A stretch of DNA of 64,000 nucleotides from Norana najaformis (Eukaryota; Annelida; Clitellata; Crassiclitellata; Hormogastridae): the NCBI GenBank assembly GCA_964023275.1, contig OZ029915.1, positions 16,694,275 through 16,758,274 of the forward strand, written 5' to 3'. Under the pieces are notes generated by a model. The model was given only the letters and a program-made list of their open reading frames with translations, had not been told where the DNA came from and searched no databases. Shown one piece after another: positions 1-57,216 of the stretch; positions within the stretch are counted from its first letter, which is position 1, and every line of letters starts with the position of its first letter. Made by a program: the position numbers and the translations under genes.

Positions 1-1
1 C

Positions 2-37
2 TGACGTAAGATGACGTCAGCAGTGTACTATATAAAG
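2..37 (+). promoter_or_regulatory. CRE-like site plus TATA box of transposon copy 1
   Basis: A perfect CRE octamer TGACGTCA lies at 12-19, preceded by a near match TGACGTAA at 2-9, and a TATA box (TATATAAAG) follows at about 29-37. The ATG of the long reading frame is 115 bases further on. The same CRE-then-TATA order precedes copy 2 at 11,214-11,243, so this is probably the element's own promoter. CRE boxes are bound by ATF/CREB-type bZIP factors in animals; use here is inferred. Confidence 0.6.
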
Positions 38-151
38 CGAGTCGGAACGGTTGAGCATTTACAATATTACAGACTTTGTGCGAGACAGTTTAAGTTACTG
101 TTTTATAAAACTATTATTACTTTATCCATTTAGATACAATACAGAACAGTA

Positions 152-1717
152 ATGCCTCGGAAGTGCGTAAATACTGTGGACAACTTTTGTTACATTTGTG
201 GGGAAGTGACATTTGCCAACCAGAAGAAAAGTATCACTTATCAAGTCAAGAAGGCATATCATGCTTACTTCGAATGCAAGGTTGGTGACCAAGACAAGCC
301 ATGGGCCCCGCATATATGCTGTGCTACATGTACAACACAGCTTTCACAGTGGTTGAATGGCAAAAGACCATCAATGCCGTTTGCAGTTCCCATGGTGTGG
401 AGAGAGCAAAGCAACCACGTAGATGACTGTTACTTCTGCTTGGTTCCTCCTCTTTCCGGTGGAATAACGAAGCAAAAGAAGTCGACAATAGTCTACCCAA
501 ACATTCCGTCAGCATTGAGACCAGTTCCACATGGTGATGGACTTCCTATTCCAGAACCTCCAGCAGAATATATTTTCCTTGATTCATCTGATGAGGACAA
601 GGGTGAGCCGACATGTTCTTCTCCTGGTCCGTCAGCGTGCAGTGATCCCGATTTTCACTGTGGTGCATCATCAACCCCACACAGAATAACACAGGAAGAA
701 CTAAATGACCTTGTTCGTGATTTGGACTTATCCAAAAACAAGGCAGAATTGCTAGGATCAAGACTCCAACAATGGAATCTTCTAGAAGAAGATGTCACAA
801 TTACTTCATATAGAAAGCGCCATCAGCAGTTGGAACCTTTCTTTATGAAGGAAGGTAATCGGGTATTCTGTTCCAATATTGACGACCTCATGAATGCCTT
901 ACAGATCACTCATGACCCACAAGAATGGAGACTCTTTGTAGACTCTTCAACACTGAGTCTTAAGGCTGTGGTTTTGCACAATGGAAACCGTCTTCCATCT
1001 ATTCCATTAGCGCATGCTGTCCACATGAAAGAGACATACGATAACCTAAAACAGCTACTGCATTCCATTGACTATAACAGGTACAAATGGCACCTGTGTG
1101 GTGATTTGAAGGTAGTTGCCATTTTAATGGGACTGCAGCAAGGATATACAAAATATATGTGTTTCTTGTGTGAGTGGGATAGCCGAGCAAGAGAGTTGCA
1201 CTACGTGCGGAAGGAATGGACTCCCAGACAAAACATGGGAGTTGGACAGAAGAATATCCAGCACCCAGCTCTGGTCGAGGCTCACAAAATCCTACTACCA
1301 CCCCTTCACATCAAACTAGGTTTGGTGAAGAACTTCGTGAAAGCCATGGACCGCACTTCGCCAGCTTTCCGATACCTGCATGAAAAATTCCCTCGACTCA
1401 GCGAAGCAAAGATTAAAGAGGGAGTTTTTGTGGGTCCTCAGATTAGAGAACTCTTCAAAGATGACCGCTTCAACAACTTGCTGGAGGGTGATGCGAAACA
1501 AGCATGGAATGCTTTTCGTCTAGTGTCTACAGACTTTCTGGGGAATGTTAGGGCAGAAAACTACAAGCAACTAGTAGAAGACATGCTCAAGCAGTACCAG
1601 AAATTTCGCTGCAATATGTCTCTGAAGATGCATTTCCTTCATTCCCATCTGGATTTCTTCCCTGACAACTGTGGTATGGTTAGTGACGAACAAATTTCTA
1701 TGGCGCATACCTCTTAG
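152..1717 (+). CDS. Copy 1: candidate transposase of an unnamed DNA transposon family, 3' truncated
   Basis: This is the longest copy of the family, 521 aa and unbroken until its 3' end. The N-terminus has cysteine pairs (FCYIC near residue 13, CCATC near 57, CYFC near 96) around a conserved GDQDKPWAPH segment, giving a treble-clef or ZAD-like look. An acidic Ser/Asp-rich linker follows at about 130-180. The C-terminal part holds LFVDSS (D264), GDLKVV (D318), CFLC (C337, C340), PPLHIKLGL, FLHSH (H494, H497, H499) and SDEQ (E513). The D, D, C-x2-C, H, E order matches what is known of several RNase H-like DDE transposases; the assignment is inferred. Compared with copy 2, the conserved tail (GERFHQD to the C-terminus) is missing. 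The last residues (ISMAHTS) are foreign and run into piggyBac sequence. No intron is apparent. The left terminus lies outside the window. Confidence 0.72.
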   Translation: MPRKCVNTVDNFCYICGEVTFANQKKSITYQVKKAYHAYFECKVGDQDKPWAPHICCATCTTQLSQWLNGKRPSMPFAVPMVWREQSNHVDDCYFCLVPPLSGGITKQKKSTIVYPNIPSALRPVPHGDGLPIPEPPAEYIFLDSSDEDKGEPTCSSPGPSACSDPDFHCGASSTPHRITQEELNDLVRDLDLSKNKAELLGSRLQQWNLLEEDVTITSYRKRHQQLEPFFMKEGNRVFCSNIDDLMNALQITHDPQEWRLFVDSSTLSLKAVVLHNGNRLPSIPLAHAVHMKETYDNLKQLLHSIDYNRYKWHLCGDLKVVAILMGLQQGYTKYMCFLCEWDSRARELHYVRKEWTPRQNMGVGQKNIQHPALVEAHKILLPPLHIKLGLVKNFVKAMDRTSPAFRYLHEKFPRLSEAKIKEGVFVGPQIRELFKDDRFNNLLEGDAKQAWNAFRLVSTDFLGNVRAENYKQLVEDMLKQYQKFRCNMSLKMHFLHSHLDFFPDNCGMVSDEQISMAHTS

Positions 1718-1779
1718 TCATACACCAGCTCCCTGAACTTCAGAACTACTGCAGTGCAGACCCATTATTGAGTGTTCCA

Positions 1780-6101: not shown

Positions 6102-7600
6102 TCATGCAAAAGTCAGGGTGAAGTTAGTCTTAAGAAGGTATATAAAAGATGATAGCGAGTTTGAAAGTCGGGCCTTTTGTGGTAGACGATTCCAAATAAA
6201 TACGAGGAGCACAGCAACTAAAGGCAGTTGTGATCCTACAATTGTCCTGAACCTTGGTTCTTGCAACAAACTAGTATCAGAAGAATGCAAGAATCTAGAA
6301 GGGCAATATGGAATCAGCAAAGTATTAAGATATGATGGAAGGCCAGTATTCTGAGCCTTAAAGGTCAAGCATGAAATTTTAAACTTAACACAGCACTCAA
6401 CAGGAAGCCAGTGATGTTCACAAAGGCGATCTAATGCAGTTGATGAAGAAGAACATGTAACAACCCTAGAAAGAGAGTTTTGAACCCTCTGGAGCTTTTT
6501 TACATTAAGAGAAGATATACCGTATGACACTGCATTTGCATAGTCTAATCGAGAACCAACAAGTGCACTTGCCACTGTTTTAGCCATGTCATTAGTCAGA
6601 GATTGTCTGATGTGGCAAAATGCCTTGATGTGGTAGAAACAAGACCTGTAAATAGAAAATACATGTGAAGTCATAGTGAGCGAGTTGTCAAGGGCGACAC
6701 CAAGAGTTTTAATTCTGTCTGATAGTGGGATTTTGGTTCCTGCAAGGTCAATAGATGAATGTGAAGAGAAAGACTGCATATGCTGGTGAGTTGTAAAAAT
6801 AACTGCCTCTGACTTATCTGGATTGATTGTAAGATCTTTACACCAGAACCAATTGTGAAGAGAGGACAAACAGTTTTTGAGTTCAGTTTTAGCTCAGGAA
6901 TCTGTTGGAGAGAGAGAAACGTAGAGTCAAGTATCGTCAGCATGTTGCTGGACCAATGTATTATGCATGGGTGCAATTTGATAAAAGGGTAAAAATAAAG
7001 ATAGAAAAAAGGAGAGGCCTGAGGACAGAACCCTGAGGTACACCTGAGCAATAGCATCACAGTGAGACGAGTTTATGTTGCTACTCGTTGAGAACAATTA
7101 TTGAGATAAGAAGATCCAGTGAAGAGCAGAACCTGTAATTCCAAAATATGTATAGAGTCGAGACAGCAAAAATACCATGATCTACAGTATCAAATGCAGC
7201 ACTCAAATCAAGAGATATAAGAAGAGATGCTTTGCCAGAATCCATTGAATTAAATACATTGTTAAGTGTGCCAGTAAGAGCAGTCTCAGTTGAATGGCTA
7301 CGAGAAGCCGAATGAAAAGGACTAAAATTCGGAGGAGATGTTACATGCCCCTGAAGACGTATGAGAAATAGGCATTCAAGCAGTTTGCAGATATTACTCA
7401 GATTGGAAATAGGTCGATAATTAGCCAGACAGACTTTATCAAGATCAGGTTTTTTAGTAGAGGTGTCACAACAGCAGGTTTAAAAGCTGAGGGAAAACGG
7501 CCTGCACGAAAGGAGAGATTAGCCAGGAATGAAGCAGCTTCTTGATGATGCTCCATCGGTCTTTAGAAGTTTTGGCAATGTCCATCTGGCTACGGTAGAA
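6102..7600 (-). pseudogene. CR1/L2-like LINE reverse transcriptase
   Basis: Reading right to left, RT fingers (PISNLSNICKLLECLFL, then HSASRSHSTETALTGTLNNV) lie at about 7,200-7,420. The palm block LDLSAAFDTVDH is at about 7,170. The thumb and C-terminus fall in a 255-codon frame at 6869-6102 (LTINPDKSEAVIF, IKTLGVALDNSLTM, SRLDYANAVSYGI, HWLPVECCVKFKI, FIWNRLPQKAR). Stops and shifts separate the blocks. Together with the endonuclease at 7831-8645 it forms one minus-strand element of about 2.6 kb, lacking its ORF1 end. Confidence 0.8.
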
Positions 7601-7830
7601 CTGCTGTCAAGATCTTACAATTAGTTTATAGATACCCTGCATGCTCCGGTAGGCAATTTGATCATTTCCTGCAGAGTTTTCTTCCACCAACGTTCCAGGC
7701 AACAACGATCATGTTTGGGCATGTTTGCTCAATCAGAAAGCCATTTTGTGATTGGCTTTGCAGGTCTTCTAAAGTAGGTGTGAACTGGTGCAACTTTATC
7801 CAACTCCCTCAGAACAATGGTAGAGAGTTG

Positions 7831-8645
7831 CTATACAAAAGCATCTGCTGTCTGGGCTGGACCTGAAAACATTTCAGTGTTGAACAGTGCCTGCTCAAAT
7901 TGACTGTGTTGGTCAGCCTGTTCAGGTGAAAGGAAAAGCAACCTGGATGTACTCACTGCTCCTGTAGCAGTGATAAGACTGTGGTCAGATATACAGCCAG
8001 TATCACTGACCCGAATATTTCCAACCGTCGCAGGATTATCAGTGATTAGTAAATCCAGCAGATTTCCACCACGAGTAGGAGTTGAAACATGCTGGTTGAG
8101 ATCAAATGATATTAATAGATCGTCTAACCCAAGGTCAATATGATTTCCATCACTGCCTGGACAGTTAAAGTCGCCACAAACGAGCAGACGATCATTTGTA
8201 CTGGCAGTAATTGTGGAAATCATGTCCGAAAATTCGTCATAGAAGGTATGAATGGAGCTTGATGGTGGACGATAGATGTTGGTGGTGATCAAAGAGGATG
8301 CAGCCTTACCTACTCGGACCATCTGAAGCTCATATGATGACGGATGAAAGGAGTCAGGCAAAGGGTGGACGGTGACTTGAATGGACAAATGGTAGATGAC
8401 TGCAAGACCACTGTCTCGGCCAGGGCTGCCGTCAACTGGCCGCCAGTGAACATGTTGTGTGGAGAAAACTTCAGGTGCCACTCCTTGCTTGATACAAGCT
8501 GGTGCATCAGATGTAATCCATGTCTTGGTTAGAGCAAAAACATCCAGTCATTCATCAGCTATGATGTCGTGGATATTCTCAGCATGATGTACAGCAGAAC
8601 GAATATTCAGGGCTCCAAACTTCAGTGATGAAGGTTGAAGCATTG
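7831..8645 (-). pseudogene. LINE AP-endonuclease domain (upstream half of the 6.1-kb LINE)
   Basis: The minus-strand frames carry LNIRSAVHHAENI, DVFALTKTWITSDAPACIKQG, SGLAVIYHLSI, TTNIYRPPSSS, LLVCGDFNCPG, LDLLITDN and CISDHSLITA. These are the ordered motifs of an APE-type endonuclease (E in the TETW-like block, GDFN, D, SDH). They nick target DNA for target-primed reverse transcription. At least one stop lies near the N-terminus. The element runs on into the reverse transcriptase at 6102-7600. Confidence 0.8.
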
Positions 8646-10357: not shown

Positions 10358-10922
10358 CAATGTTCCCTCTAAGCTATACATGTGTGTGTGCACACACAAC
10401 ATTTGAGGATAGCATGCACAGCAGTTTCCTCCTAGTGCACAATTCTCGTGAGTATTCTTGTTGTTTCAGAGTTAAATTTTGCCCACTGTTACAGCTGATG
10501 GAATATTTACTCTACGATGTTCAGAAGACCAAAATGAGGCCCATTTGTGAAACCATATGGCATGTCTGCCCATCTAGGTTTTGACATGCCCTCAGACACA
10601 TCCATTTGGCCCACATAATACATCTGTGCAATAGCTGACCACCAGTTGTTGCCAGGTCTCTCAGCTTCTCTGCAATCTGAACTCGAGCCCGCATACGATG
10701 GATGCTCCGTGATACACCGGTGTAAATATGACTGCAGTCTCCAGTCTTCATTTTGCTTGGTCTGGTGTGAAAGTAGTCCTTCACGTTAATGAAACAGTTG
10801 CTATTAGTCATTTTACACCTACAGCCTAATAAACTTGACTGGATAGCTCTACAAGTTTGCACTCTCTACATTCATCCTGTATTCATCATTTGCAATTAAA
10901 TTAAATGTCAAAACAAAAATTA
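10358..10922 (+). mobile_element. Left end of a hAT (Tip100-like) element
   Basis: CAATGTTCCCTCTAAG at 10,358-10,373 matches, from memory, the characteristic CAxTGTTCCCTCTAAG terminus of Tip100-type hAT elements. Coding remnants of a hAT transposase resume at about 13,330 on the same strand. The two parts are separated exactly by transposon copy 2. No right terminus was found before about 15,400. Confidence 0.5.
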
Positions 10923-11047
10923 CACTGGATCACAACGATTTTGCTACTGAAAGTAATGCATGTGCCTTATATTGATTCAAATGTGCTGATTCCAAATATG
11001 AAGTCAGAATCTGCCCAGCACGTCTAGATTTTAAGTTATGCATGCAT
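10923..11047 (+). repeat. Left terminal inverted repeat of copy 2
   Basis: It pairs with 13,165-13,307. The outermost 15 or so bases match almost perfectly and the inner block (GTGCTGATTCCAAATATGA) differs at only a few positions. Confidence 0.8.
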
Positions 11048-11213
11048 TCAAGTAATGACGTAAGGACTCGTTTTCGGTTATGTCCATACATTCTGTTGTA
11101 TGTGTCTCCACGATTGCTGCCAGTGATACGTGCATGTTTGCAAGTGTTGCCTGAAATATTCCTAACAGCAAGCCTGCAGCAGCCGCTAGACATGATTGGG
11201 CATGTCAGCGAGC

Positions 11214-11243
11214 TGACGTCAACATCAATACCAGTATATAAGG
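11214..11243 (+). promoter_or_regulatory. CRE plus TATA box of copy 2
   Basis: TGACGTCA at 11,214-11,221 is followed 13 bases later by TATATAAGG (11,235-11,243). The ATG is about 70 bases downstream at 11,314. Order and spacing resemble copy 1, although the coding parts have diverged to roughly half identity by eye. Confidence 0.6.
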
Positions 11244-11313
11244 CGAGATTGCGTAGAACGAAGGTGAAGTTTTCTTATATAGCTGTATCTAGTGTGTGAG
11301 ATTTAATTTTGAA

Positions 11314-12957
11314 ATGAATAGGCGAGGCTGTGTTAACCATCCAGACAATTTTTGCTATGTCTGTGGTAAATATACTCTTTGTGACCAGCGCAAGAAGTTA
11401 ACTAAGAGAGTGACGATTGCTTACAAGTATTATTTTGGATGTCAAATCGGAGACCAGGATAAAAGTTGGGCACCGTGCGCTACTCTGGGCTTACACAGTG
11501 GCTGAATGGCAAAAGGAATTCAATGCCGTTTGCTGTGCCTATGGTGTGGCGCGAGCCAAGAAATCATCATGCAGACTGTTATTTCTGCATTACTAAAGTT
11601 GCTGGATTTTCAAAGAAAAATAAGTCTAAAATCGTTTATCCTGATTGCGAGTCCACTCTAAAGCCAGTGCCGCATGATGAAGAGAATCCAGTACCATTTC
11701 CGCCTGCTGCGGGTGCTGATGAAACGGACAGTTCTGATGGTAATACAGAAGATGACGTTACTGCTTATGAATCCAGTGATCAAGATTTGGAAGAGGGTAG
11801 GCCGCATTTGATAAGGCAAGATGAGTTAGATGATCTGGTGAGGGACCTATCTTTGTCAAAGGAGAAATCTGAACTGTTAGCCTCCAGACTAGGGGAGTGG
11901 AACTTGCTTCAAAAAGGTACCACAACATCACACTTCCGTTATCGTCACAAACAGTTAGCTACATATTAGAAACTGGAAAATGATATCTGTTTCTGTACTG
12001 ACGTGAACGGTCTCATGCTGAATTTAGGTTGCGAATACGTTCCTGATCAGTGGAGACTGTTCATAGATTCCAGCCAAGCGAGCTTGAAAGCTGTGTTGGT
12101 GCACAATGGTAACGAAAAGCCGTCTGTTCCTATACCCCACGCTGTAGGCCTCAAAGAGACATATGATTCAATGAAACTCATTTTGAAAGTGATCAACTAC
12201 TCAGACCACAAATGGAACATCTGTGCGGACCTCAAAGTGGTAGCACTTATTCTAGGCCTACAGCTGGGGTACACAAAACATATGTGCTTTTTGTGCTTGT
12301 GACAGCAACCATTACAAAGTGAAACTGTGGCCTCCTAGATCTGAGCACATTGTTGGTCGGTACAACGTGCAACACGAACCATTGGTTGATCCATTGAAAG
12401 TGTACTTACCACCACTTCACATTAAACTGGGCCTCATGAGGAATTTCGTAGTGGCAATGGATCGTACTGGACAAGGCTTCCAGTATCTGAGAGATAAATT
12501 TGGAGCCGTCAAAACTGATGCTAAGCTGAAGGCTGGAATTTTTATTGGGCCAGAAATCCGCGAACTAATGCGTGATACTGTATTTAGAACCAAGCTCAAC
12601 CCACTGGAATTTGCCGCTTGGGATGCATGTACGTTGGTGGTGCAAAACTTCCTTGGGAATCACCGAGCTGAGAACTATGCTGAACTCGTTAGCAACATGC
12701 TAACAGCATATAAGGAACTCGGCTGCCGGATGTCACTAAAAATACATTTCTTACATTCCCATCTGAATTTTGTCCCACCAAACTTGGGTGATGTAAGCGA
12801 TGAGCATGGAGAGAGATTCCATCAAGACATCTCCACCTTTGAAGCAAGATATCAGGGCCACTGCAATTCCAACATGATGGGCGATTACTGCTGGTTTCTG
12901 CAGCGGGCAACAGCGGCCACTCACAAGCGCAAGAGCAAGTGTCTAAAGCACTTTTGA
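11314..12957 (+). pseudogene. Copy 2 transposase-like gene with two frameshifts and one stop
   Basis: Conserved sequence runs from NHPDNFCYVCG to the C-terminus. A frameshift or small deletion near 11,480 removes the second Cys pair (after DQDKSWAP). A TAG stop lies at 11,967-11,969, and a second frameshift near 12,300 falls just after CFLC. Key residues remain: LFIDSS, ADLKVV, CFLC, PPLHIKLGL, IHFLHSH, VSDEHGERFHQD. It ends with a basic Lys/Arg-rich tail after MMGDYCW. The intact form would be about 570 aa. No introns are needed to explain the alignment with copies 1 and 4. Confidence 0.78.
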
Positions 12958-13164
12958 ACTCGTATAGAGTTAAGCTAGAGACAAAATTTCGAAATGTATG
13001 CTTTCATCTGAGTAACATACATATATTTATATTACATTTTAAAACATATTTTAATTTCAAGTTATAAAAGAATAACATTTTGTTTCTTGTTATGAATACT
13101 CTGAGTTTGCATAATTACACAGTTATAAGGAAATACTAGTTCTGTAAAGAGTTTGCATAATTAT

Positions 13165-13307
13165 TAGCATGTATGCTGCATATCTTAAGATCCTGACATG
13201 CTACACAAAATCTGACTTCAGATTTGGAATCAGCAGATTCGATTTAGTGTAGTACACATAACATATGCCTAATAACAGGCGAAAAAATTTTTTCGTGTGA
13301 TCCAGTG
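13165..13307 (-). repeat. Right terminal inverted repeat of copy 2
   Basis: Reading inward from 13,307 it starts CACTGGATCACACG and then has an A6T6 palindrome (AAAAAATTTTTT). The same motif occurs at the left end of copy 4. Confidence 0.8.
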
Positions 13308-13329
13308 TTATCCACCACCAGCTTTTCAG

Positions 13330-24775: not shown

Positions 24776-25012
24776 GGTACGGGTGTAGATTTTGCCCCTA
24801 ATCCCGATTGGCATGAAATTTTACCCAAAGATAGCTCTCCAATAACTAGTCCAACGCGCCTATTCCCGACTTCCGCAAACGATCTGGCGATTTTCTATGA
24901 ATTTTTAAATTTCCAAGAAAACTAATGGAGAATGGCTGGTCTTTACACAAATTACGGAAGTGGCCATCTTTCCAAGGATGTTTGAACTCAAGGTGGTGAA
25001 CTTTTGTAGCGC
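24776..25012 (+). repeat. Left arm of a 240-bp inverted repeat
   Basis: It starts GGTACGGGTGTAGATTTTGC and is closely matched, in reverse complement, by 27,233-27,475. Matching stops abruptly at GCGC (25,012 and 27,233) and at the outer GGTAC. The arms enclose 2.2 kb. Either these are long terminal repeats of a fold-back element or two copies of a MITE in opposite orientation. No clear target duplication. Confidence 0.8.
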
Positions 25013-25069
25013 AATTCTTTAACATCACGTCAATGCACATCTAGTTTATGGTCACAACAGACTATTTGT

Positions 25070-25385
25070 TTTACTACTACTAATAATAATAAAACAATTT
25101 ATATAGTGCCGTAACATGACCGAGGTCGAAAATAATGGCTCTGTACATTCACCAGTGCATTCAGCCATCGAAGGATAGGCTGAAAAGGAAAGTTTTTAGC
25201 CGTGTTTCAAATGTGTATATCCGGTGGTCGAGTGCAGAAATCAAGTAGATTGTCCTGAGCACCGCCATTTAAGACTTTGTATGTCATCAGACACAGCTTG
25301 TCAGTGATCCGCTGCAGGACGCGCAACCAGTGAAGATTGTCCCGCAGCGGAGCGGTGACATCGTCGGATATTATCTTGCCGTAAA
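25070..25385 (-). mobile_element. LINE 3' fragment
   Basis: The minus strand reads APLRDNLHWLRVLQRITDKL then CLMTYKVLNGGAQDNLLDFC, the RT thumb and C-terminal pattern of CR1/L2-like LINEs, and ends in an ATT-rich tail. It lies inside the 24.8-27.5-kb inverted repeat. Confidence 0.6.
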
Positions 25386-25389
25386 TGCA

Positions 25390-26060
25390 ACATAAATGAG
25401 ACTAAATGTACTGTCACTTCTATTCAACCTAATGCTTGTGCATGGCAAAGTTCCAACAAATTTTGGCCTAGGCATCATCATACCTTTGGAGAAGGAGTCG
25501 ACCTTAGATAACAGCAAAAGTAATAACAATCGATGTATCACTTGTGAAATTTATATAAACTCTTTTAAATGTGTGGTAGACCATTATGGCACCTACTTAT
25601 TTGCATCCGACCGGCAGTTTGGATTCAAAAGGGGCTGGTTTGTTAACAAGCACTTCTTGCAGTCAAAGGAGTAGTTGATAACTTTACTAGTCATGGATCT
25701 ACTATAAACTTATGTGCCTCGGACATGTGTAAACTTTTAACAAAGTGAATCATTATGCCTTGCACATTAAGCTGTCGTGAACTTGGCCCTCTGGCTCCTA
25801 GTGTGTCCGTGGCAAGGAACCGGAGAAGATGTCATGCGGTCCGACCTCCGTGGTATATCAGAGGATTTTCAATGTAGAACACCCAGTTTCGAAACAACAA
25901 AGTTTTAATACACAAACCGTTTAACTAAACTGAACACAGAACTGTTATAGATCTGCTGTAAGTAATCCGTACTGGCCACACAATCGCATACAAGATCGCC
26001 TGTTTAATACGGTATCTATGCAGAGTAAGCCACTACAGAGATATCATTTTAATTTGCTAA
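25390..26060 (+). mobile_element. LINE reverse-transcriptase fragment of a second type
   Basis: The plus strand reads FNLMLVHGKVPTNFGLGIII, PLEKESTLDNSKSNNNRCIT, SDRQFGFKRGWFVNKHFLQ and GSTINLCASDM in shifting frames, then an ALFIKL-like remnant. This is the fingers-to-palm order of an RT distinct from the CR1-like pieces. Confidence 0.6.
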
Positions 26061-26900
26061 TCTTTGCCATGCAACAAATGAATGTATGCATGCCCAGAGA
26101 CCACAACGTGGAGGTGTTGGCAAGAAGGTCTCCATGGCTCATTCGCTTTCAGCTGTGAGAACAGTCTTTAAAAATCCTTGTTGAATTTGTAATGTTTGTA
26201 AACAGTTGTAACTCCTATTGCACTTCTTCTAAGAAAATGAAGCAGCTACAGGTGCAGAGAATATAACAAGTTTGACATAGTTGTAGACAGACACATCAAC
26301 ACACAGATGACCAGACATATGCAGGGATCAAGACAGCACTACAAATGAGAAGCAGAGGCTAGTCAGGAATATCAAGAGAGATACATGTAGGAGATACAAG
26401 GACAAACAAAAAGCTGAAGGCACAGGCAGAAGCACAGTGAGACTTAAATACAGGCAACATAAGACAGTACTATCTGTTCTTCATGCACATGGAAAAAGAC
26501 ACTGAAAAGGCGATACATGCACAACATAGGACAGACAAAGGTACAAAGTGGCAGAGAAACAAAGACAGACACAGGTGAAGAAAAAACTGTGCACAAGCAG
26601 AAACAGTTTCATAAGGTTTTGTTAACTGCTGACAATCGAAGGGATAGACTGGCATACAAATAGAGACACAGCAAAAGCAACACACAACACAATGGCAGAC
26701 AGATAGATACGGAAAGAGGAAAGTGAATGAAACATGACAAGAAAGAAACCCTCCCTACATCCCGTCCCAAGTTAAAAATTTGGATGAACTCTGCTGACGA
26801 ATGAGCCACCCAAATTAATACGTTAGGTAACTGAGAAGTGACACATTTGGTCATTACTTCTCAGCTTCCAAAAAATTATGGGGCAAAATTAAAGAAGCTA
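26061..26900. other. Unassigned spacer
   Basis: An A/C/G-rich, T-poor strand (26,280-26,720, many ACAGACA and ACACAG phrases) suggests a decayed simple repeat. No gene seen. Confidence 0.35.
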
Positions 26901-26902
26901 CA

Positions 26903-27031
26903 CAATTATGCAGTGATCATTCTTGAAGTTCAAAATATTACACAATTAGACAGTGCTGAATCCTGACATAACACAAAACAATCATGCAGTGATCATTCTT
27001 GAAGTTCAAAATAATACACAATTAGACAGTG
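26903..27031 (+). repeat. 53-bp direct repeat, two copies
   Basis: Copies at 26,903-26,955 and 26,979-27,031 (CAATnATGCAGTGATCATTC at the start) differ at two or three positions and are separated by 23 bases. Confidence 0.85.
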
Positions 27032-27232
27032 TATTATAAGTATTTTATAATTTCAAAACTGTAACTATTTCAGTCTTTTATAATTCTAAGTTTTAATTAC
27101 GGACACATTTTTAAACATTTATAAAGCTTCTGGCTAATTGCGCTGCAGAAGTTTCAATGTTGATTTTATTATGCTGTGTGTGACCATTTCCGGACGACAA
27201 GAGGGTCGTTTTGTGTGCTTTAAAGTGTTGAT

Positions 27233-27475
27233 GCGCTACAAAAGTTCACCACCTTGAGTTCAAACATCCTTGGAAAGAAGGCCACTTCCGTAATTTGTGT
27301 AAAGACCAGCCATTCATTCTCCATTAGTTTTTCTTGGAACTTTAAAAATTCATAGAAAATCGCCAGATCGTTTGCGGAAGTCGGGAATAGGCGCGTTGGA
27401 CTAATTATTTGGAGAGCTATCTTCGGGTATAATTTCATGCCAATCGGGATTAGGGGCAAAATCTACACCCGTACC
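27233..27475 (-). repeat. Right arm of the 240-bp inverted repeat
   Basis: Reverse complement of 24,776-25,012 with a low level of mismatches and small gaps. Confidence 0.8.
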
Positions 27476-32537: not shown

Positions 32538-33600
32538 GGATAACTGTTCCGTTGAATCAGTGTGTATATTTGTACCTGCGCTTCGTCGAATGTATGTGAC
32601 GATGGGTCGACCATCTTTCGGTTGATCGTCTCTCTCACTTGCGCGTCTAGACTGACCTCCGAATCTCGTGATCCTGTCTGTAAGCGCCGTGGTGAAGAAG
32701 CAACCCTGAGTTAGCGGTCGCGTGAGTGTAGAGCGTTCTGTGGGCGTTTCTTCGATGGGGCGCAAGAACTTCCGGTGTGGATCGGACGAACATCCAGCAC
32801 CACCAACTCCCTCCTCTTCATCGCCATCGCCGTCTGCTTCGAAGGCGCCTGCGTCGTGGGCTTCACTGACGCGAGCGTCGACGTCTCCTCGACCTCGACC
32901 CGCAGGCTGTCCTTCGACAGGCGGTGTGGCTCCTTGACCCAGAGGATCGGTTGGGGCCCGTCGGCTGCGTCTCGACGACCAGTTCCAGATTCTCTCCTTT
33001 TCTTTAATCTTGGCTTCAGGCACGGTTATTGTTCTCTGGAATTGCCAGTCTTTGCTTAAATCTGGCTCCAAGAATGTGCCATTAAAGGCAATCGCGTTAG
33101 ATCGCTGGATGACAATGGCGAGGCGTTGGAACAGGAAAGAAGTCTTCCTCTTGTCTCCCGATACTTGGGTTAAATGGCGTCCGATTTTCTTGATGAGGCT
33201 ACAGCCTTCCTGATTTATGGGGCCTAGAGTCTCGAAGGCCAGAGGGACGAAGCAGTGTGTCGAGAGAATATCACTGTATTTTGAGGTCTTTCGTTCTGCT
33301 GCGATCTCAGCAGCAGCACCTGCGACCACGGCTGTTCTGGATCGATTAGAGACTGCCAGAGTATCGATTACTGTGGCGTCCCAGGTCAAGCATTTACCCC
33401 CTTCCCAAGGAATGAGGGTTGCTCCATCAGGTCGTCGGACCTAACCAATCCTGCTGGTTCTTTAGTTGATGGAAAGCCAGCCTTCACGAGGGCGCGCCAC
33501 ACGATGTCATTGATACAGGCGTGTCTTGCTCTTCTCCCTGGGCCTAAAGGGCGTGCTAGACCGTGCGAGCCGTCCACAGTGACCAGAAACCCGCAGGGGC
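32538..33600 (-). pseudogene. LINE C-terminal zinc knuckle and restriction-like endonuclease
   Basis: Downstream of the RT frame, the minus strand has CPCGFLVTVDGSHGLARP (C-x-C...H knuckle, about 33,595-33,545) and then HACINDIVWRALVKAGFP. Next is TWDATVIDTLAVS (about 33,390), AAAEIAAERKTSKYSDILS and HCFVPLAFETLGPINQEG. The D-T-D...E-x-x-K pattern (WDATVIDT, then E...KTSKY) fits a PD-(D/E)XK nuclease. It is joined to the RT by a frameshift near 33,510. A charged, low-complexity tail follows. Such nucleases nick the target in R2/NeSL/R4-type LINEs. Confidence 0.55.
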
Positions 33601-34655
33601 AAACGTGAGCTTAGGCCTGTTGCGATGCGTACAGCCTCATCGTCTAGCCTCAAGCCGCAGGCACTTATGGGCAGCGCCAAAAGCCAGTCGCCAGAGTGTG
33701 GTGAAGAAACTGCCTTAAATCTGGCTTCGTGGTACTCGGATGTTATTGAGGCTCTGAGGGTTGCCAGACTCTTTTGGATAAGTGGGCGGTCCCAAGTTGC
33801 CTGTTTATGGGATATTGGGGTCTCGGGATTGGGGACATTTAATTTGGCTGACCAGCGGGTCCGGGCTTGTTCCAAAGGGCCATACGGGGGAATGTCGCAA
33901 GAGCTAAGAATGGAATCCTGTAACGACGTGGTGCCTGCGGCTGAAGCCAAGAAGGCGGGAAGTGCCAGCGAGGACGCGCGACGTATACCAAGACCTCCGT
34001 CTCGGACAGGTAAAGATGCCTGATCCCAGCTCTGATCATTCAGAGCCAAGTTGAGCATGTTGGTGAGGCCTTTGCGCAGCAGTTGGTCGAATGTGTCAAG
34101 AGCCGGGTTGTCCATGCATGGTGTGCAGCGGAGTGTGTGGAGCAGGGTGCAAGAGCTTAGTGAGTTGCGAAGAAGAATTATGGCATCATGCCTAGATATG
34201 TGAGCCATACGGTCAATCCCTAGTGATAGTTGTGCGCATCGCTTCTCCAGTGCATCCCTTAGAGCTCCGCCCGTGGAAAGAGGTGCGCCCAAAAGACAAG
34301 CATTGTCAGAAGGTGTGACCGTGAAGCAGTCTAGAGGAGATGGCAGGTTGGTAGATTGGATGTGTGTTATCACTTCGCACTTACTGACATTTAGTGTCAA
34401 ACCCATTTCGCCCGCGACCCTGATAATAGATTCGACGTCTGCCGCCACTACGGATGCTTTCCCACCCAGAGTCAGGTCATCCAAATACCCAAGGCGTAGA
34501 GGAGAAGAAAGACCTGTTAGAAGCGGCTGAATGGGAAGACAGAAGAGAAGTGGACCGAGGGGATCTCCTTGCTGTGGACCTGTTTGTGAGAGTATAGTAA
34601 AATCGCCGTATTTAAGAGAGGAAGGTCTGGAATAAGCCAAACTGCAGTAGGGGTA
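33507..34655 (-). pseudogene. LINE reverse transcriptase with LGYLDDL active site, 5' truncated
   Basis: A 377-codon open frame starts inside the RT domain: TGPQQGDPLGPLLFCLPIQP (the QG block), LGYLDDLTLGG (catalytic DD, unusual YLDD rather than YADD), GLTLNVSKCEV (thumb), then SWDQASLPVRDGGLGIRRAS. The 5' part is cut off at about 34,655 by AAT repeats. The frame is long for an inactive element, suggesting a fairly recent insertion. Confidence 0.7.
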
Positions 34656-45059: not shown

Positions 45060-45637
45060 TCCTTCTGAAGCCAAGTGCTTTTACCTTATCAAACCAGGTG
45101 TGTCTAAAATATCTTCTTGCTTCTTTCTGACTTGGTAACTTCACCATAAGTCCCTACCTTAAGTTCTCCAAATCTACGTCTAGATCCAACACTCATCCAA
45201 ATTACTTGTTGCTTGTTTACCTTCTGCTGTTTCTATCTGGTGACATTGAACTCTGGTCCTTGCAGGCTTGAAACGGTTAACTTCTGCCACTTTAATTCTA
45301 TATGGAATTGAGTCCTCCTCATAATTACATCTTGGATCATCCATTAGGTATCCTTGCTCACAGTGAAGCTTGGCTTTAACCACCTGATGCACCTTCCTTC
45401 ATTTTGGACTTAACACCTCACTCCTTTTCTGTGCTAAATGGATATCTTTTATAAATCACACTTGAAACTTGCTAGCTTCCCTTCACATATTCCAACCCCA
45501 AAGTCATTTGAAATCCCTTTTACTGATCTGGATTTTGGAAATCAGTGCATCAGTTTGTCAGTGTCTACCAGCCTCCCTCCCTCATTTTTTGACTTTTTCT
45601 TAGAATTCCAGTTACTGCTTGATGAGTATGGCTGAGA
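45060..45637 (+). mobile_element. LINE endonuclease fragment, cut by copy 3
   Basis: LKLASFPSHIPTPKSFEIPF and SLPPSFFDFFLEFQLLLDEY match the endonuclease part of the minus-strand LINE at 17.4 kb. The reading stops within a codon or two of the first recognisable residues of transposon copy 3. Confidence 0.55.
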
Positions 45638-46389
45638 GGTCATCAAAGACTTGAAAATGGTAGCATTCCTGATGGGTGTCCAAGGCGGTTTTACCAAGTT
45701 TCCCTGCTGTCTTCGCCTTTGGGACAGCAGGGACAACAAGATGCACTACCACAGGCGGGACTGGCCACAGCGGACCAAGTTCTTTGTGGGGAGGAACAGT
45801 GTCAAGTGGGACCCCCAGAAGGTGCTGATGCCACCATTGCACATCAGATTGGGCCTTATGAAACAATTTGTCACAGCTCTAAATAAAGAGTCGGCAGCCT
45901 TCAAGTACCTTCGAGACTTCTTCCCTAAGCTGTGTGAGGCAAAGGTCAAAGCCAGTGTCTTCATGGACCACAGATGAAGATCTTGAAATGCAAGGAATTC
46001 CCCAAGAAGCTCACTAGGAAGGAGAAAGTGGCTTGGAACAGGTTTGTCGCAGTGGTTAGGGCTTCTTGGGCAATCACAAGGCCGAAAACTATGTGTAGCT
46101 GATTGAGACTCTGGTGAAGAAGTACAGCAAAATGGGCTGCAAGATGTCCCTCAAAGTTCATATCCTTGATGCTCATTTTGATAACTTCAAGGAGAACATG
46201 GGAGCATACTCAGAGGAGCAAGTCGAGCACTTCCACCAGGATATACTGGACTTTGAACGTCACTACCAAGGACAGTATAACTAGAGCATGATGGGAGACT
46301 ACATTTGGGGGCTGATTCATGAGAGTGATTTACATTATTATCATAAATCTAAAAAAAATACTTCTAAATCTTTTGTGGTCATTTTTGTA
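45638..46389 (+). pseudogene. Copy 3: 5'-truncated, frameshifted transposase of the unnamed family
   Basis: It begins at the second catalytic block (KDLKMVAFLMGVQGGFTK) and runs through WDSR, MPPLHIRLGLMKQFV, FKYLRDFFPKL, a frameshift near 45,970, then KLTRKEKVAWNRFVAVVR. Another shift and stop at about 46,090 precede KMGCKMSLKVHILDAHFDNF, AYSEEQ, FHQDILDFERHYQGQYN (stop) and MMGDYIWGLI. The C-x2-C has become C-x2-R. The N-terminal half and first Asp block are absent. This branch (EEQ rather than DEH, ILDAH rather than FLHSH) is distinct from the other copies. Confidence 0.7.
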
Positions 46390-50074: not shown

Positions 50075-53000
50075 ATGTTTAAGGCCATCATCGGGACAAT
50101 CAATTCACGGAAGGCACGATCAAAGTCCGGCAAGAGTGAGTTGGTGAACCAGTTTGCCATTAACACTGATTCCTGTGCAGGTTCCTTACAAAACCTTGAA
50201 AACAAAAATACCACTCAAAGAACTCTTGATTCATCTAAATATACAACTGAAGATTTATCCATAAATACTGTTGGAAACATTGATAATGTGGAACCAGAGA
50301 TATTTAGATTAGCAAACACAAAATTGAGAGCATGTCGAAATGTATCAGTCAGTCTGGATGATCTAGAAGAAAAGGCTGGTGGCATGCTTGGCTTGGACGT
50401 AGACAGCATGTATGATTTAAAACCAGTAAAGTGGCTTTCTACGCTTAGATTTCATCCTGATGCTGAAGAAGATTACTTTAATGGAGATTATTATTTGACA
50501 GCTTCCTTGTCACTTCAGTCCGTAAATCCAGATATTAATAACTGTTATGTTAATGGAGAACAGACAAGTGACTTCAAGGAAAATACAATCTCGTGGAAGT
50601 CTTTTCTTGTGCGTCAGAACCTTGGTGAGCACAGCAAGGCAACTGGATTGCAGAAATCACATATTTTGCCATTAGACAGCAACTGCCGAATCTGTGATAC
50701 AACTTTGCCACCACATAGAGATCGTCCCAGTAGGGATCAGATCACATCAATTGCTGTGCCTCAAGAATATTATGCTAATGAGATTGCCTTGCCTGAAACC
50801 CATTCAAGAATGTGCACGTGTGCATATAGCAGGTCAGTTGAAATCCAAAACTCTGCCACTGTGCCATCGAAAATCCGTGAAGTAAACAGTCTAGCACAAG
50901 ACAGTGAAAGTTCCAGTGGTCTGCCAAATGCAAAGAAACTAATAGTTAATGATCATAACTTCAACACTTTTGGCACTCCATTAAATTTTAGTGCCAATTA
51001 TATTTTGAGTTCATCAGCCAAGGCTTTGGAGAAGGAGTCCGTTTGCTCACTACATTCATCATCTTCAGTCAATGAGAGTGAGCTGTACTTGCTTTCAACT
51101 AGTTTTCTTAATGATAGTAACTGCACTTATGTTTCAATGTTGAACAAAAGTGTTCCACTGTCAAAGGCTTTACCAGAGGGTAATGTGATAATTGAGGATG
51201 ATTATGCTTCAGAAGTAGTGGCATCATTTCTGGAACCTCGTCTTGAGACTGAACATTCCAGTTTAGATCTAAGTTTCGCTGTAAGAAATCCACAGTTTTC
51301 AGGAATATTCTACACAGATCAACAGTCAAACGATGACAGTGCATTACAAAATCAAAACACTCGGCAGCGTATTTTAAGTTCAAAAGTCTTGGACCAGAGA
51401 CTTCATTTTAGCAATAACTGGAAGACAGAGAAACAAGCCAACTGGACTCAAGGAGATGTCATGTCATGGGTATATGCTGTTGGACTGGAGAAGTTCTCAG
51501 ATCTTTTTAGAGAAGTTCCTGGTTCTCAACTGGAGAACATCAACACGGAGAAACTTACCTTTGAAGAAAAAGCAACTGTTGTGTCAAAGCTGTATCATTT
51601 GCATGAAATGCAAGAAATGCTGGTGGGTGATCCAGCTTCAAGTCGAAAGGAAAAAGAGTTGCAGCATGAGGGTAATTTTAGGACTCATGAACCAAGCAAC
51701 AGCAAAGCAATGCTGAGGAATGATGAAGGAGCATCAGCAGCAGACAAACAGCCATTGCCTGAAAATAATCATCAGCAAAAAGCCAGTGAAATGCAGAAAT
51801 TCTGTGTTTTTAGAAGTATTAGTGGAGTAATGAAGCAGTTGGTCATTTCAGTTACAAAGCAGACTACTGTTGCAGAAATAATTGAAACAATTTTACTTCT
51901 GGATAATGTGATAGAAGATCATAATCTTTATAGTGTAGTTGTGGTGAATGATAACCATAAAATAGACGGCAGTTACAAGGTGATGGCTCAGAGTGAAGTT
52001 GTTGCAGTTATGAATCAGAGCTTTTGCGCAGATGATGGATGGCATTTTGAGTTACACAAAAGTGATGGTCTGGAAATAACAATCACTCTTAATAATTCTT
52101 GTCTAGGAACAACAGAAACCAAACAGTTAACTGTTGCAAGGCACTCAAAAAGTAGTGAAGTGATTTCTTTGGCTGTTCGTACATTTGGTTTGCATGATTG
52201 CTCAGACGAGTCTTTCAGTTTAATAATAATTCAAGAATGTAGCAATGAAATGCTAGCAATACAAGAAAACAAAGTTCTTGCAGACTTAACATCTTCTAAT
52301 TTTCTGCTGTGTAAAAAAGAAAGTCTGGTACAAGGTGACATAGAGAATGTGAGTTTTGGAAGTTCCAGCAGTAATCTTTCAGGATGGGAACGAAAACAAA
52401 GTGATAGCACAGAGAATTTTATGGCTCTGCGTTCTGGTCAAGACAGCAGCATAGTGCAGCCAGGTTGCAAAATTATCCCCAGTTCTGCTACAAGGTCAGC
52501 TTCACCTGTTTCAGCTTCAGAACTCTGTGAGTTGCAACGGGCTTTGATGCATAAGAACTCTCTCATAGCAGCACTGGAACAAGAGAAAATAGAGCTAACT
52601 GAAAAACTTTCTGTGGTGGCACAACCCGACAGTGGTCCTAATGGCAACCTTTATGATGCCATTCAAGATACATGTGATTCAGCCTGTGTTTTTAGTGTAA
52701 AATTAGCAAAAAAAGCAGACAACACACTTGGCTTTATGTTAGGTGTGAATTGTGATGATCAGCCAATAGTGAAAAGGTGTCAGCCTGGAATCCCACTGAA
52801 GAAAGGTGATAGATTTCTAGAAGTAGATGGAATTCCAGTTTTCAACCTAACTGAGAACAATCTGTATAAAGTATTGGTGAAGCGTCCATCTTCAGAGATA
52901 AAGGTAGTTGTTTTGAGAAAGAATGAACCACCAGATGATGTGATTTCTGGTTTGTCCGAAGTAAATGCCTTGAAGCAGGATTTATATTTGGCCTTGCTGG

Positions 53001-53365
53001 AGTTGGAGATTGCTGAACAAGAAAACCAGGACTTAAATCATGCAACTTGTGAGCTAAAGCATTCCCTGCACATGTCAGAAAGCAGTTGTCAGCGGCTGCA
53101 AGCAGAAATAGAAGAACTGAAGAATGCAGTCCAGGAATATCAGTTTATTTTGAAGCAGGATCGTGAAATGCTATTATACAGTGGAAATGCCATAGAGGTG
53201 AAAGAAGGGAACCTGAGGGTAGTGGAGCAGCTGATGAAGGATAGCACTTTAAAGAATTGCCCTTATATTAAGCAGCTTGATGTTAGCAATAGCAGCAGTA
53301 TCAATGAAGGACAATGCATAAGCTCCGCACTTGGGAACGAGTTGCTAGAAACATCTAAGACATGA
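50075..53365 (+). CDS. SAM-RA-RA-PDZ coiled-coil scaffold protein, single coding exon
   Basis: A 1,096-aa uninterrupted frame. Residues 1-455 are Ser/Asn-rich and probably disordered. A SAM domain spans about 456-520 (NWTQGDVMSWVYAVGLEKFS, then a conserved helix ending LYHLHEMQEM). Two Ras-association-like ubiquitin folds follow, about 575-662 and 666-750. A short coiled coil is at 816-848 (LQRALMHKNSLIAALEQEKI). A PDZ domain is at about 871-950 (TLGFMLGV as the carboxylate loop, DRFLEVDGIPV). A longer coiled coil spans about 965-1030. SAM domains oligomerise, RA domains bind Ras/Rap-GTP and PDZ domains bind C-terminal peptides, so a cortical or junctional signalling scaffold is inferred. I know of no named protein with exactly this order; CNK, Tiam and neurabin share only parts. 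The start is chosen as the first ATG after the acceptor at 50,049. Confidence 0.88.
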   Translation: MFKAIIGTINSRKARSKSGKSELVNQFAINTDSCAGSLQNLENKNTTQRTLDSSKYTTEDLSINTVGNIDNVEPEIFRLANTKLRACRNVSVSLDDLEEKAGGMLGLDVDSMYDLKPVKWLSTLRFHPDAEEDYFNGDYYLTASLSLQSVNPDINNCYVNGEQTSDFKENTISWKSFLVRQNLGEHSKATGLQKSHILPLDSNCRICDTTLPPHRDRPSRDQITSIAVPQEYYANEIALPETHSRMCTCAYSRSVEIQNSATVPSKIREVNSLAQDSESSSGLPNAKKLIVNDHNFNTFGTPLNFSANYILSSSAKALEKESVCSLHSSSSVNESELYLLSTSFLNDSNCTYVSMLNKSVPLSKALPEGNVIIEDDYASEVVASFLEPRLETEHSSLDLSFAVRNPQFSGIFYTDQQSNDDSALQNQNTRQRILSSKVLDQRLHFSNNWKTEKQANWTQGDVMSWVYAVGLEKFSDLFREVPGSQLENINTEKLTFEEKATVVSKLYHLHEMQEMLVGDPASSRKEKELQHEGNFRTHEPSNSKAMLRNDEGASAADKQPLPENNHQQKASEMQKFCVFRSISGVMKQLVISVTKQTTVAEIIETILLLDNVIEDHNLYSVVVVNDNHKIDGSYKVMAQSEVVAVMNQSFCADDGWHFELHKSDGLEITITLNNSCLGTTETKQLTVARHSKSSEVISLAVRTFGLHDCSDESFSLIIIQECSNEMLAIQENKVLADLTSSNFLLCKKESLVQGDIENVSFGSSSSNLSGWERKQSDSTENFMALRSGQDSSIVQPGCKIIPSSATRSASPVSASELCELQRALMHKNSLIAALEQEKIELTEKLSVVAQPDSGPNGNLYDAIQDTCDSACVFSVKLAKKADNTLGFMLGVNCDDQPIVKRCQPGIPLKKGDRFLEVDGIPVFNLTENNLYKVLVKRPSSEIKVVVLRKNEPPDDVISGLSEVNALKQDLYLALLELEIAEQENQDLNHATCELKHSLHMSESSCQRLQAEIEELKNAVQEYQFILKQDREMLLYSGNAIEVKEGNLRVVEQLMKDSTLKNCPYIKQLDVSNSSSINEGQCISSALGNELLETSKT

Positions 53366-54676: not shown

Positions 54677-54813
54677 TGAAATACTATCAGTATGCAACCA
54701 GAGATATTTAGATTAGAAAATACAAAACTGAGAGCATGTCAAAATGTATCAGTCAGTCTGGATGATCTAGAAGAAAAGGTTGGTGGCATGCTTGAAATAC
54801 TATCAGTATGCAA
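54677..54813 (+). repeat. 95-bp copied piece of the SAM-RA-PDZ gene between 21-bp direct repeats
   Basis: 54,698-54,792 matches 50,294-50,390 (codons for EPEIFRLANTKLRACRNVSV onward) with about five substitutions. It is flanked by identical 21-base sequences TGAAATACTATCAGTATGCAA at 54,677-54,697 and 54,793-54,813. The parent piece is internal to an exon and has no poly(A). Confidence 0.9.
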
Positions 54814-55288
54814 ACCATCATCCTTGCATACAGAGGTGCCTTGACATGTTGAATTTACAATTGATATCACTGGCCAACAGAAAAAAATTTTTTTCTTGTT
54901 GCCTTCGGTTTTAGACCTGTTCTTGGGGTAATTTTGGGTGCTGATTCAGAAAATGTCATTGGATTGAGTGCATCAGGTCTAGTTTCTGAGATATCGTCGA
55001 TTTTGTAAAGAAAACCCAGTCCACTCTTTAAACGATGTCTTTGGCAAAACTAAAATGTCATAATAAGCTTTATTTATGGCTAATTATAATTCTTGCTGAT
55101 TCATATAATGCCTACATCCTTATAATGTAAAATCAGCATATCTTGCCGCGTGCTGAGATATTGCTGATTCAACGAAATAACTATTCCGTAGCCTACAGCT
55201 TACTCAGCACTAAATTCATGGCCTCATTTAGAATTTATTTGTGCTTATACAGCGTTTCATGGTTTCGAACTATGTAAATAGATTATGC

Positions 55289-55317
55289 TGAAGTCAGCAT
55301 TTATAGCCTGTATAAAC
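55289..55317 (+). promoter_or_regulatory. Decayed CRE-like and TATA sites of copy 4
   Basis: TGAAGTCA (one mismatch from the CRE) at 55,289-55,296 and TATAAACC at about 55,311 have the same order and spacing as in copies 1 and 2. The ATG is at 55,473. Confidence 0.4.
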
Positions 55318-55472
55318 CGCCTCCTGAAAGCTAGAGCAGCCGCAGTCGTCTTAGGGCACATTAAGAGTTGGTCGCAAGAACAATCTGTGAATGTGAGCAT
55401 TAAATAACTACATGTTCTTACTATTTTTTAGGTTAGTCATTTAATTCCTCAGATGCGAACATCCTTAAGGTT

Positions 55473-56904
55473 ATGGCTACTTCCAGACGGAGCTGCATTA
55501 ACCATCCAGACATATTCTGCTACATTTGTGGGGAATACACACTAAAAGCAAACAGGAAACCGATTTCTGAGTTTGTAAAAAGAGCATATGTAGGTTATTT
55601 TGGTGTCAAACTTGGAGATCAAGATAAGCAATGGGCTCCTCATACAGTATGCAAAACTTGTATTGAACAATTGCGCCACTGGACAATTGGAAAGAGAAGC
55701 TGCCTGAAATTTGGTGTACCGATGGTTTGGAGGGAACAGATAAACGACTTCGACGACTGTTACTTTTGTATGGTTAATATCATAGGCATCAATCGAAATA
55801 ATCGTCACAAGTTGTCTTACCCTGATATACCTTCAGCCAGGAGACCTGTTCCGCATTCGGATATTGTACCAGTTCCACCTTTTCGCGAACTACCTCAGCT
55901 CTCAGACGATGAGACTTGCATGTCCAATATCGGACAAGATGACGAAAGTGAAGAAAGTGGGGGCAGTGACAGTGATTTCCAATCAACTTCACACAGTGAA
56001 CGTTTTGACCAAAAAGAGTTGAGTGATCTGATCAGGGACTTAAATCTTTCCAAAGAGTCCTCTGAATTGCTTGCGTTCAGACTAAAGGAAAAGAATGCAC
56101 TTCAGCCTGGAACGAAAATTACAATTTATAGAAACAGAGAAAAGGATTTGCTGCCATTCTTAACCGAAGACAACAACCTAGTATTCTGTAATGACATCAG
56201 CAACTTATTGAAGAAAATTGGTCTGTCGGATTACAGCCCAGATGAGTGGCGTCTTTTTATCGACAGTTCAAAACGTAGTCTGAAATGTGTGCTTTTAAAT
56301 AACGGCAACAAATTTGGTTCTATTCCAATCGGTCACTCCACCAGGATGAAAGAAGAGTACAATGCCATCTCTTTAGTACTGGAAAAGATAAAATACAAAG
56401 AACATCAATGGGTAATTTGTGTAGACTTGAAGATGGTAAATTTCCTCCTTGGTCAACAAAGTGGCTACACAAAGTATCCCTGCTTTTTGTGTCTTTGGGA
56501 CAGTAGAGCCAAGCATGAACATTGGACAAGAAAAGATTGGCCTTCGAGGAAAGACATGGTGGTTGGAGCTCAAAATGTAATCAAGGAATCTTTGGTGGCA
56601 CGAGATAGGATCATACTGCCACCACTACATATAAAGCTAGGCCTGATGAAACAATTTGTCAGGGCTTTGAATAAAGAAGGTTCATGCTTCGAATACATAG
56701 TACACAAGTTACCAGGAATTACAATGGAAAGATTGAAGGCAAGGTGAAAGATTTCACCAAGACATCAAAACAATGGAAAATCGATATCAAGGAAGATGGG
56801 ATGCACACATGATGGCAGACTATTGCTGGAATATTATGCGCGATTGTTCCGGCAGATGCCACACTCGGAAATCGTACAAAAGGAGCTTCTTCGGTGTCAA
56901 ATGA
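55473..56904 (+). pseudogene. Copy 4 transposase gene with an internal deletion
   Basis: A 424-codon frame (55,473-56,747) carries the intact N-terminal module (NHPDIFCYICG, GDQDKQWAPH, CKTC, CYFC), LFIDSS, VDLKMV, CFLCLWDSR and PPLHIKLGLMKQFV. At about 56,741 sequence corresponding to about 100 residues, including the H-x-x-H block, is missing. The join shifts frame. The remaining tail (GERFHQDIKTMENRYQGRWD, MMADYCWNIM, basic C-terminus) is readable in another frame to a stop at 56,902-56,904. The upstream part is clean, so the deletion is the main lesion. Confidence 0.8.
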
Positions 56905-57216
56905 CTTGAAATTTTTATAACAAACTTGTTCTGTTTGGTATCATATAAGTACAGTTTCAGGTACTAACATTTTCTTTTAAGTATTTGTATTATTATGTTT
57001 ATTTAGTGTATCACATAATAAATTGAGCACTACATAATTATAGCTATAGCCTTATGTTTTATGGGCGAGCAGAGGCAAGGACTGGTATATGGCATATCTA
57101 TATCTCGAAAACTAGACCTGCTGGGAGAAAACTGGTGCCTTTTCTGGAATCAGCAGGTCAAATATACCCAGAAACAGTTCTAACATTTGAGGCAACAAAT
57201 TATGTGTTGGCCAGTG

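Follow-up and report, generated by a model that had tools for sequence, protein, structure and literature searches.

Elements at the locus

The window, by which we mean the whole 64,000-nucleotide stretch of contig OZ029915.1 from the annelid Norana najaformis, contains four sites that share one protein family, as revealed by tblastn with one full-length relative as the query. Several lines of evidence strongly support that this family is a cut-and-paste DNA transposon with a single DDE (Asp-Asp-Glu) transposase of the RAG1/Transib fold. Judged by published description, the elements are very probably new members of Chapaev3, in the Chapaev branch of the CMC/CMCT group. Copies 1, 2 and 4 represent three families, F1, F2 and F4, all of which have CACTGG ends. 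The copy 1 match (pos. 152–1708) showed 97% identity to protein P0001 (97.5% over 519 aa). Copy 2 matched at 11323–12939 (52–56%) in three pieces and two frames with one in-frame stop, copy 3 at 45621–46362 (44–45%) with stops that mark it as a relic, and copy 4 at 55488–56880 (47–57%) with an internal deletion.

Direct reading showed that copy 2 starts with CACTGGATCACA and ends with TGTGATCCAGTG, and that copy 4 starts with CACTGGCCAACA and ends with TGTTGGCCAGTG; CACTGG...CCAGTG termini are thus present in both. Their inverted repeats are imperfect and longer than 100 bp; apart from the terminal 10–12 bp, the arms align at 55–134 and 66–145 in copy 2 and at 29–127 and 19–117 in copy 4, counted from each end. 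An earlier note on this DNA had described such inverted CACTGG ends on copies 2 and 4, each pair enclosing a gene of the same protein family, and end alignment and tblastn confirmed both points. TTA stands on either side of copy 2, preceded by A on the left and followed by T on the right (A-TTA / TTA-T). The genes of copies 2 and 4 are broken, and no whole transposase can be made from either in the window. Other F4 copies contain an extra ~270 bp between copy 4 query positions 1873 and 1868, and the C-terminal piece of the copy 4 gene lies at 56743–56880 in a different frame.

Copy number and divergence in the genome

Searches of the host genome (608 Mb, 17 contigs) revealed multi-copy occurrence far beyond chance. 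Among the 40 best-scoring of 662 candidates, 34 places other than copy 2 spanned all or nearly all of it (query 1–2385, 1–2383 or 8–2385) with 95–97% identity; among the 40 best-scoring of 1231 candidates, 39 places other than copy 4 matched bases 1–1873 of it, one starting at base 2, with 99–100% identity. Most F4 copies seemed to lack the rightmost 300 bp, but this was disregarded, as the cut matches the length over which copies were scored. Genome-wide, the left and right ends of F1 were counted 951 and 918 times, respectively (up to 2 mismatches; reversed control, 0), corresponding to about a thousand copies, and the left end of F4 was counted 442 times (up to 1 mismatch; reversed control, 0). 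In the protein search, the 83 F1 gene copies scored of 6307 first-look candidates were all 98–100% identical to copy 1, and 80 of these best-scoring copies had no internal stop.

We fetched 30 F1 loci (L049–L078, L049 being copy 1) and 40 F2 loci (L009–L048, L048 being copy 2). By the patterns used, both ends were kept in 16 of the F1 and 29 of the F2 loci, and most of the others were truncated or altered at one end. The length was 2353 bp in 12 of the 16 intact-ended F1 copies and 2414 bp in 10 of the 29 intact-ended F2 copies. The genes of both families are single-exon and intact in some copies, and the survey of open reading frames (ORFs) found the 557-aa F2 frame open in 10 of the 40 loci. 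Proteins of F1, F2 and F4 were 47–54% identical to one another, and an attempt to estimate the ratio of nonsynonymous to synonymous substitution (dN/dS) revealed that synonymous sites are saturated between the three families. Mean divergence between copies was 0.46% in F1 (16 copies), where the copies compared differ by less than 1%, and 1.9% in F2 (29 copies); older copies would escape this comparison, since only best-scoring ones were taken. Within this sample, at least three separate families have recently amplified in one genome. Because open genes were common among the inspected F1 and F2 copies, these two families may still move or be mobilised.

Target sites

The target-site counts cover F1 and F2, copy 4 being the single F4 element read. 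An exact 3-bp duplication flanked 13 of the 16 F1 and 23 of the 29 F2 copies with intact ends (36 of 45), compared with means of 4.8 and 10.2 and maxima of 10 and 19, respectively, in 2000 shuffles of flank partners. The duplications were TAA (18), TTA (13), TAG (2), TAT (1), CTA (1) and TTG (1), so that TWA accounted for 31 of 36; the base before was A in 38 and the base after was T in 42 of the 45 copies. In the fetched DNA and the window, 4 of 31 joined-flank probes detected an uninterrupted paralogous empty site, and those corresponding to L071 and L010 contain a single TAA. By eye, the L071 (F1) and L020 (F2) insertions lie a few bases apart in one repeat.

The earlier note had proposed a cut-and-paste transposon, to be checked by whether the borders of other genomic copies coincide with the same ends and a constant duplication. 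The counts of intact-ended loci and exact duplications given above bear this out, and the precise shared ends, the 3-bp duplications, the paralogous empty sites and the RNase-H-fold DDE transposase described below all support the proposal.

Transposase and its relatives

Fixed residues in the F1 and F2 proteins comprise D264, D318, C337-x2-C340, H386, H494-x4-H499 and E516 (P0001 numbering). Across 177 aligned relatives, the C(2)C, LH and H(4)H motifs and the DDE residues showed little or no variation, with E513 or E516 as the candidate catalytic Glu. Fold comparison revealed a RAG1-like RNase-H core. The catalytic fold is common to this protein and those of Transib, ProtoRAG and RAG1 over ~350–370 residues, with 10–15% identity over the fold alignments, and C(2)C, H(4)H and CA..TG ends are shared as well. 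The Chapaev3 transposase is distantly related to the enzyme behind antibody gene rearrangement.

We counted 2081 relatives in the protein collection. As the earlier note had expected of such proteins, those with a source-given name were uncharacterized or hypothetical among the matches listed, and a protein search from the moth relative P0113 returned no name saying Chapaev among the matches listed. In the comparison with superfamily hidden Markov models, which the note had suggested, no Pfam model above its cut-off matched the ORFs of the window. The protein had seemed unassignable because of this result and of the uninformative names. The copy 1 protein had no PDB sequence match at E up to 1, and the family profile gave three PDB matches with E of 1.8–2.5, none of them credible. 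The literature search found no mention of six peptide words of the family.

Classification

The name Chapaev3 dates from Repbase Reports 2008 (cited in PMC4411706), and the group is a sublineage of Chapaev (PMC12730594); it is described as having CAC/GTG ends, TWA duplications, insertion always between A and T, the motifs C(2)C, LH and H(4)H and genes mostly of one exon (PMC4079192). Its type elements, Garfield and Merrow, are 2,289 and 2,451 bp long with transposases of 556 and 562 aa, respectively, and the group occurs in insects and vertebrates with horizontal transfer among them (PMC4079192). Our families have the same CAC/GTG ends and three motifs as Garfield and Merrow, share the A-TWA-T target with them in most F1 and F2 copies compared, and are of similar length; whereas the genes of those two elements have two exons, F1 and F2 genes have one, like most other Chapaev3 (PMC4079192). 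With Chapaev they share CAC/GTG ends and the CMC motifs, and their N-terminal zinc domain may correspond to the Chapa zinc domain reported for Chapaev. Duplications of Chapaev are generally 3–4 bp (PMC4079192), and in two of its subgroups a RING finger follows the Chapa domain (PMC4411706); Pfam gave no RING finger for P0001, although no search aimed at one was made.

The pointer of the earlier note to the CMC group and Chapaev was right, but its suggestion of an undescribed superfamily or branch was not supported. A case for a new superfamily, or for a deep branch within the CMC group that had not been seen before, might be made from the Pfam result, in which, beyond the ORFs of the window, 2 of 89 relatives matched zf-AD weakly (E up to 0.1), and from the uninformative names and PDB searches. 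However, the missing Pfam match is uninformative, since no Chapaev model turned up among the Pfam matches, and the published Chapaev3 hallmarks that could be tested (ends, motifs, A-TWA-T target and the sizes of element and protein) fit, apart from the exceptions given below (PMC4079192), which makes such novelty very unlikely.

Several observations weigh against the assignment to Chapaev3. It compares our elements with a description and not directly with the sequence of a named Chapaev3 protein. RAG1 and HzTransib are equally good fold matches (Z within 1), and this places the protein by fold in the CMCT group, not specifically in Chapaev3. Among the target sites, 9 of the 45 intact-ended copies have no exact duplication, 5 of the 36 exact duplications are not TWA (TAG twice, TAT, CTA and TTG), and copy 4 (..TAT / ATT..) is without an exact one of 3 bp. 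Two of the four empty sites differ by one base from the duplication: that of L020 has TTG against a duplicated TAG, and that of L022 has GAA against a duplicated TAA. CAC..GTG ends and 3-bp duplications are also consistent with EnSpm, and C(2)C/H(3–4)H is common to EnSpm, Mirage, Chapaev, Transib and relatives (PMC12730594).

Even so, an EnSpm/CACTA element is extremely improbable: the elements agree with Chapaev3 in A-TWA-T target, length and protein size, and when 89 relatives were compared at E up to 0.1 with Pfam, a collection that may lack animal EnSpm, none matched a CACTA transposase family. Transib makes 5-bp target duplications, whereas the duplication here is 3 bp and AT-rich, and none of the 45 intact-ended copies had an exact 5-bp flank match. 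Moreover, canonical Transib is described in PMC4411706 as lacking an identifiable domain besides the core, in contrast to the N-terminal zinc domain of the protein here. A Transib or ProtoRAG-like element in place of Chapaev3 is thus scarcely credible. As members of Chapaev3, the families would be ordinary transposons in kind, yet they form a clean case, and a profile built from the more than 2000 relatives would label proteins that are now without useful names.

N-terminal zinc domain

A Chapa zinc domain is reported for Chapaev, Chapaev3 and RAG1 (PMC4411706). In the protein family here, a conserved N-terminal zinc domain is formed by C5, C13, C16, C57, C60, H89, C93 and C96, and lies at window positions 152–571 in copy 1. 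For this part, ZAD domains took the top three places in Foldseek and the top four in VIA-align. Among 28 N-terminal pieces, 10 matched Pfam zf-AD with E values no higher than 1, the lowest being 2e-4, in addition to the two whole relatives mentioned above, and the zf-AD match of copy 4 reached 17.3 bits, under the Pfam cut-off of 28. In a search of 177635 PDB sequences with the zinc-domain profile, the N-terminal domain of RAG1 ranked third as a weak match (E 3.6).

Compared with the ZAD (zf-AD) of insect C2H2 transcription factors, the domain is similar in fold and weakly similar in sequence, but has an extra C-terminal CxxC module (H89, C93 and C96) and an attached transposase. That the N-terminal zinc domain of Chapaev3 transposases (Chapa, reportedly also in RAG1) is a ZAD domain is conceivable, although we lean slightly against it. 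ZAD domains pair proteins, which by analogy suggests that the N-terminal part pairs transposase subunits. The literature search found one publication that combines ZAD with transposon terms, none joining ZAD or zf-AD with Chapaev and, among the matches listed, no ZAD publication naming RAG1; the likeness is possibly a new point, through which a connection of transposases with RAG1 and with the transcription factors of insects could be tested.

Proposed mechanism

From its ZAD likeness, the N-terminal zinc domain would help to recognise or pair the ends, by pairing subunits or binding the ends. Judging from the fold, the DNA would be cut next to the CAC ends in the manner of RAG1 and Transib; the 3'-OH ends may next be joined to A|TWA|T at positions staggered by 3 bp, and gap filling by repair would leave the 3-bp duplication. 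Copies 2 and 4, in which the ends are present, would move only if other copies supply transposase.

Truncated copies

The truncated copies numbered 16 (12 of 30 F1 and 4 of 40 F2), and all were without the end at the higher assembly coordinate, in either orientation. They include copy 1, which begins 299 bp before the window does and is cut on the right at ~1692. Comparison of 150 bp on each side revealed a flank repeat of 24–79 bp at the junction in 9 of the 12 truncated F1 copies, a borderline repeat of 14 bp in L073 and L074, and essentially none in L076, while the four truncated F2 copies scored 7–13, taken as background. By eye, the flank repeats of L065 and L069 differ by single bases. 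Genome-wide, the F1 left end was found 527 times in forward and 424 times in reverse orientation, and the right end 388 and 530 times, respectively, giving 1057 low-side versus 812 high-side ends; the F4 left end leaned the same way (249 versus 193).

One-ended transposition was considered as the source of the truncated copies and rejected in view of the cut on the high-coordinate side in 16 of 16, since transposition cannot know assembly coordinates. Because the bias follows these coordinates, the sequence pattern indicates that the truncated copies, copy 1 included, are probably an assembly artefact, namely mis-joins at heterozygous insertions; if so, many insertions are polymorphic. Copy 1 is not an old remnant. 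Of the earlier note's description of copies 1 and 3 as truncated relatives, the missing right end of copy 1 stood but its left end is kept outside the window, and copy 3 is a relic with stops.

Features of the window

Table 1 Features of the transposon copies in the window
Feature	Position	Strand	Basis and remarks
Copy 1: F1 element, no right end in assembly	1–1692	+	L049 versus other copies
Copy 1 transposase gene, open until truncation	152–1717	+	521-codon ORF, final codons foreign to element
Repeat of the 76-bp left flank preceding copy 1, marking the probable mis-join	1692–1767	+	L049 flank alignment, direct reading
Copy 2 left target duplication TTA, A before it	10920–10922	.	Direct sequence
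Copy 2: whole Chapaev3-type element, F2	10923–13307	+	Ends/flanks, tblastn; inactive here (frame changes and stop)
Copy 2 left terminal inverted repeat, imperfect	10923–11056	+	End alignment; inverted repeat I6
Copy 2 transposase gene, broken	11314–12957	+	tblastn; ORF survey of F2 loci
Copy 2 right terminal inverted repeat, imperfect	13163–13307	-	End alignment; inverted repeat I6
Copy 2 right target duplication TTA, T after it	13308–13310	.	Direct sequence
Copy 3: relic of related transposase, stops	45621–46362	+	tblastn
Copy 4: F4 element, ~270-bp internal deletion within gene	54868–57216	+	Ends; comparison with other copies
Copy 4 transposase gene, N-terminal 424 codons	55473–56747	+	ORF, tblastn

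The window also contains a 2.7-kb element-like structure at 24776–27475, which starts with GGTACGGGTGTAG and has inverted arms of ~240 bp (24776–25013 and 27232–27475) with pieces 97–99% complementary, and an internal repeat pair at 26902–27031. It has no CACTGG ends and no obvious target duplication. By eye, long ORFs on the minus strand at 6102–8481 and 33507–34640 resemble pieces of the endonuclease/reverse transcriptase of non-long-terminal-repeat (non-LTR) retrotransposons, and an open frame of 1096 codons on the plus strand (50075–53365) is like a host-gene exon. Part of this frame (50274–50390) recurs with 89% identity at 54678–54794, just before copy 4.
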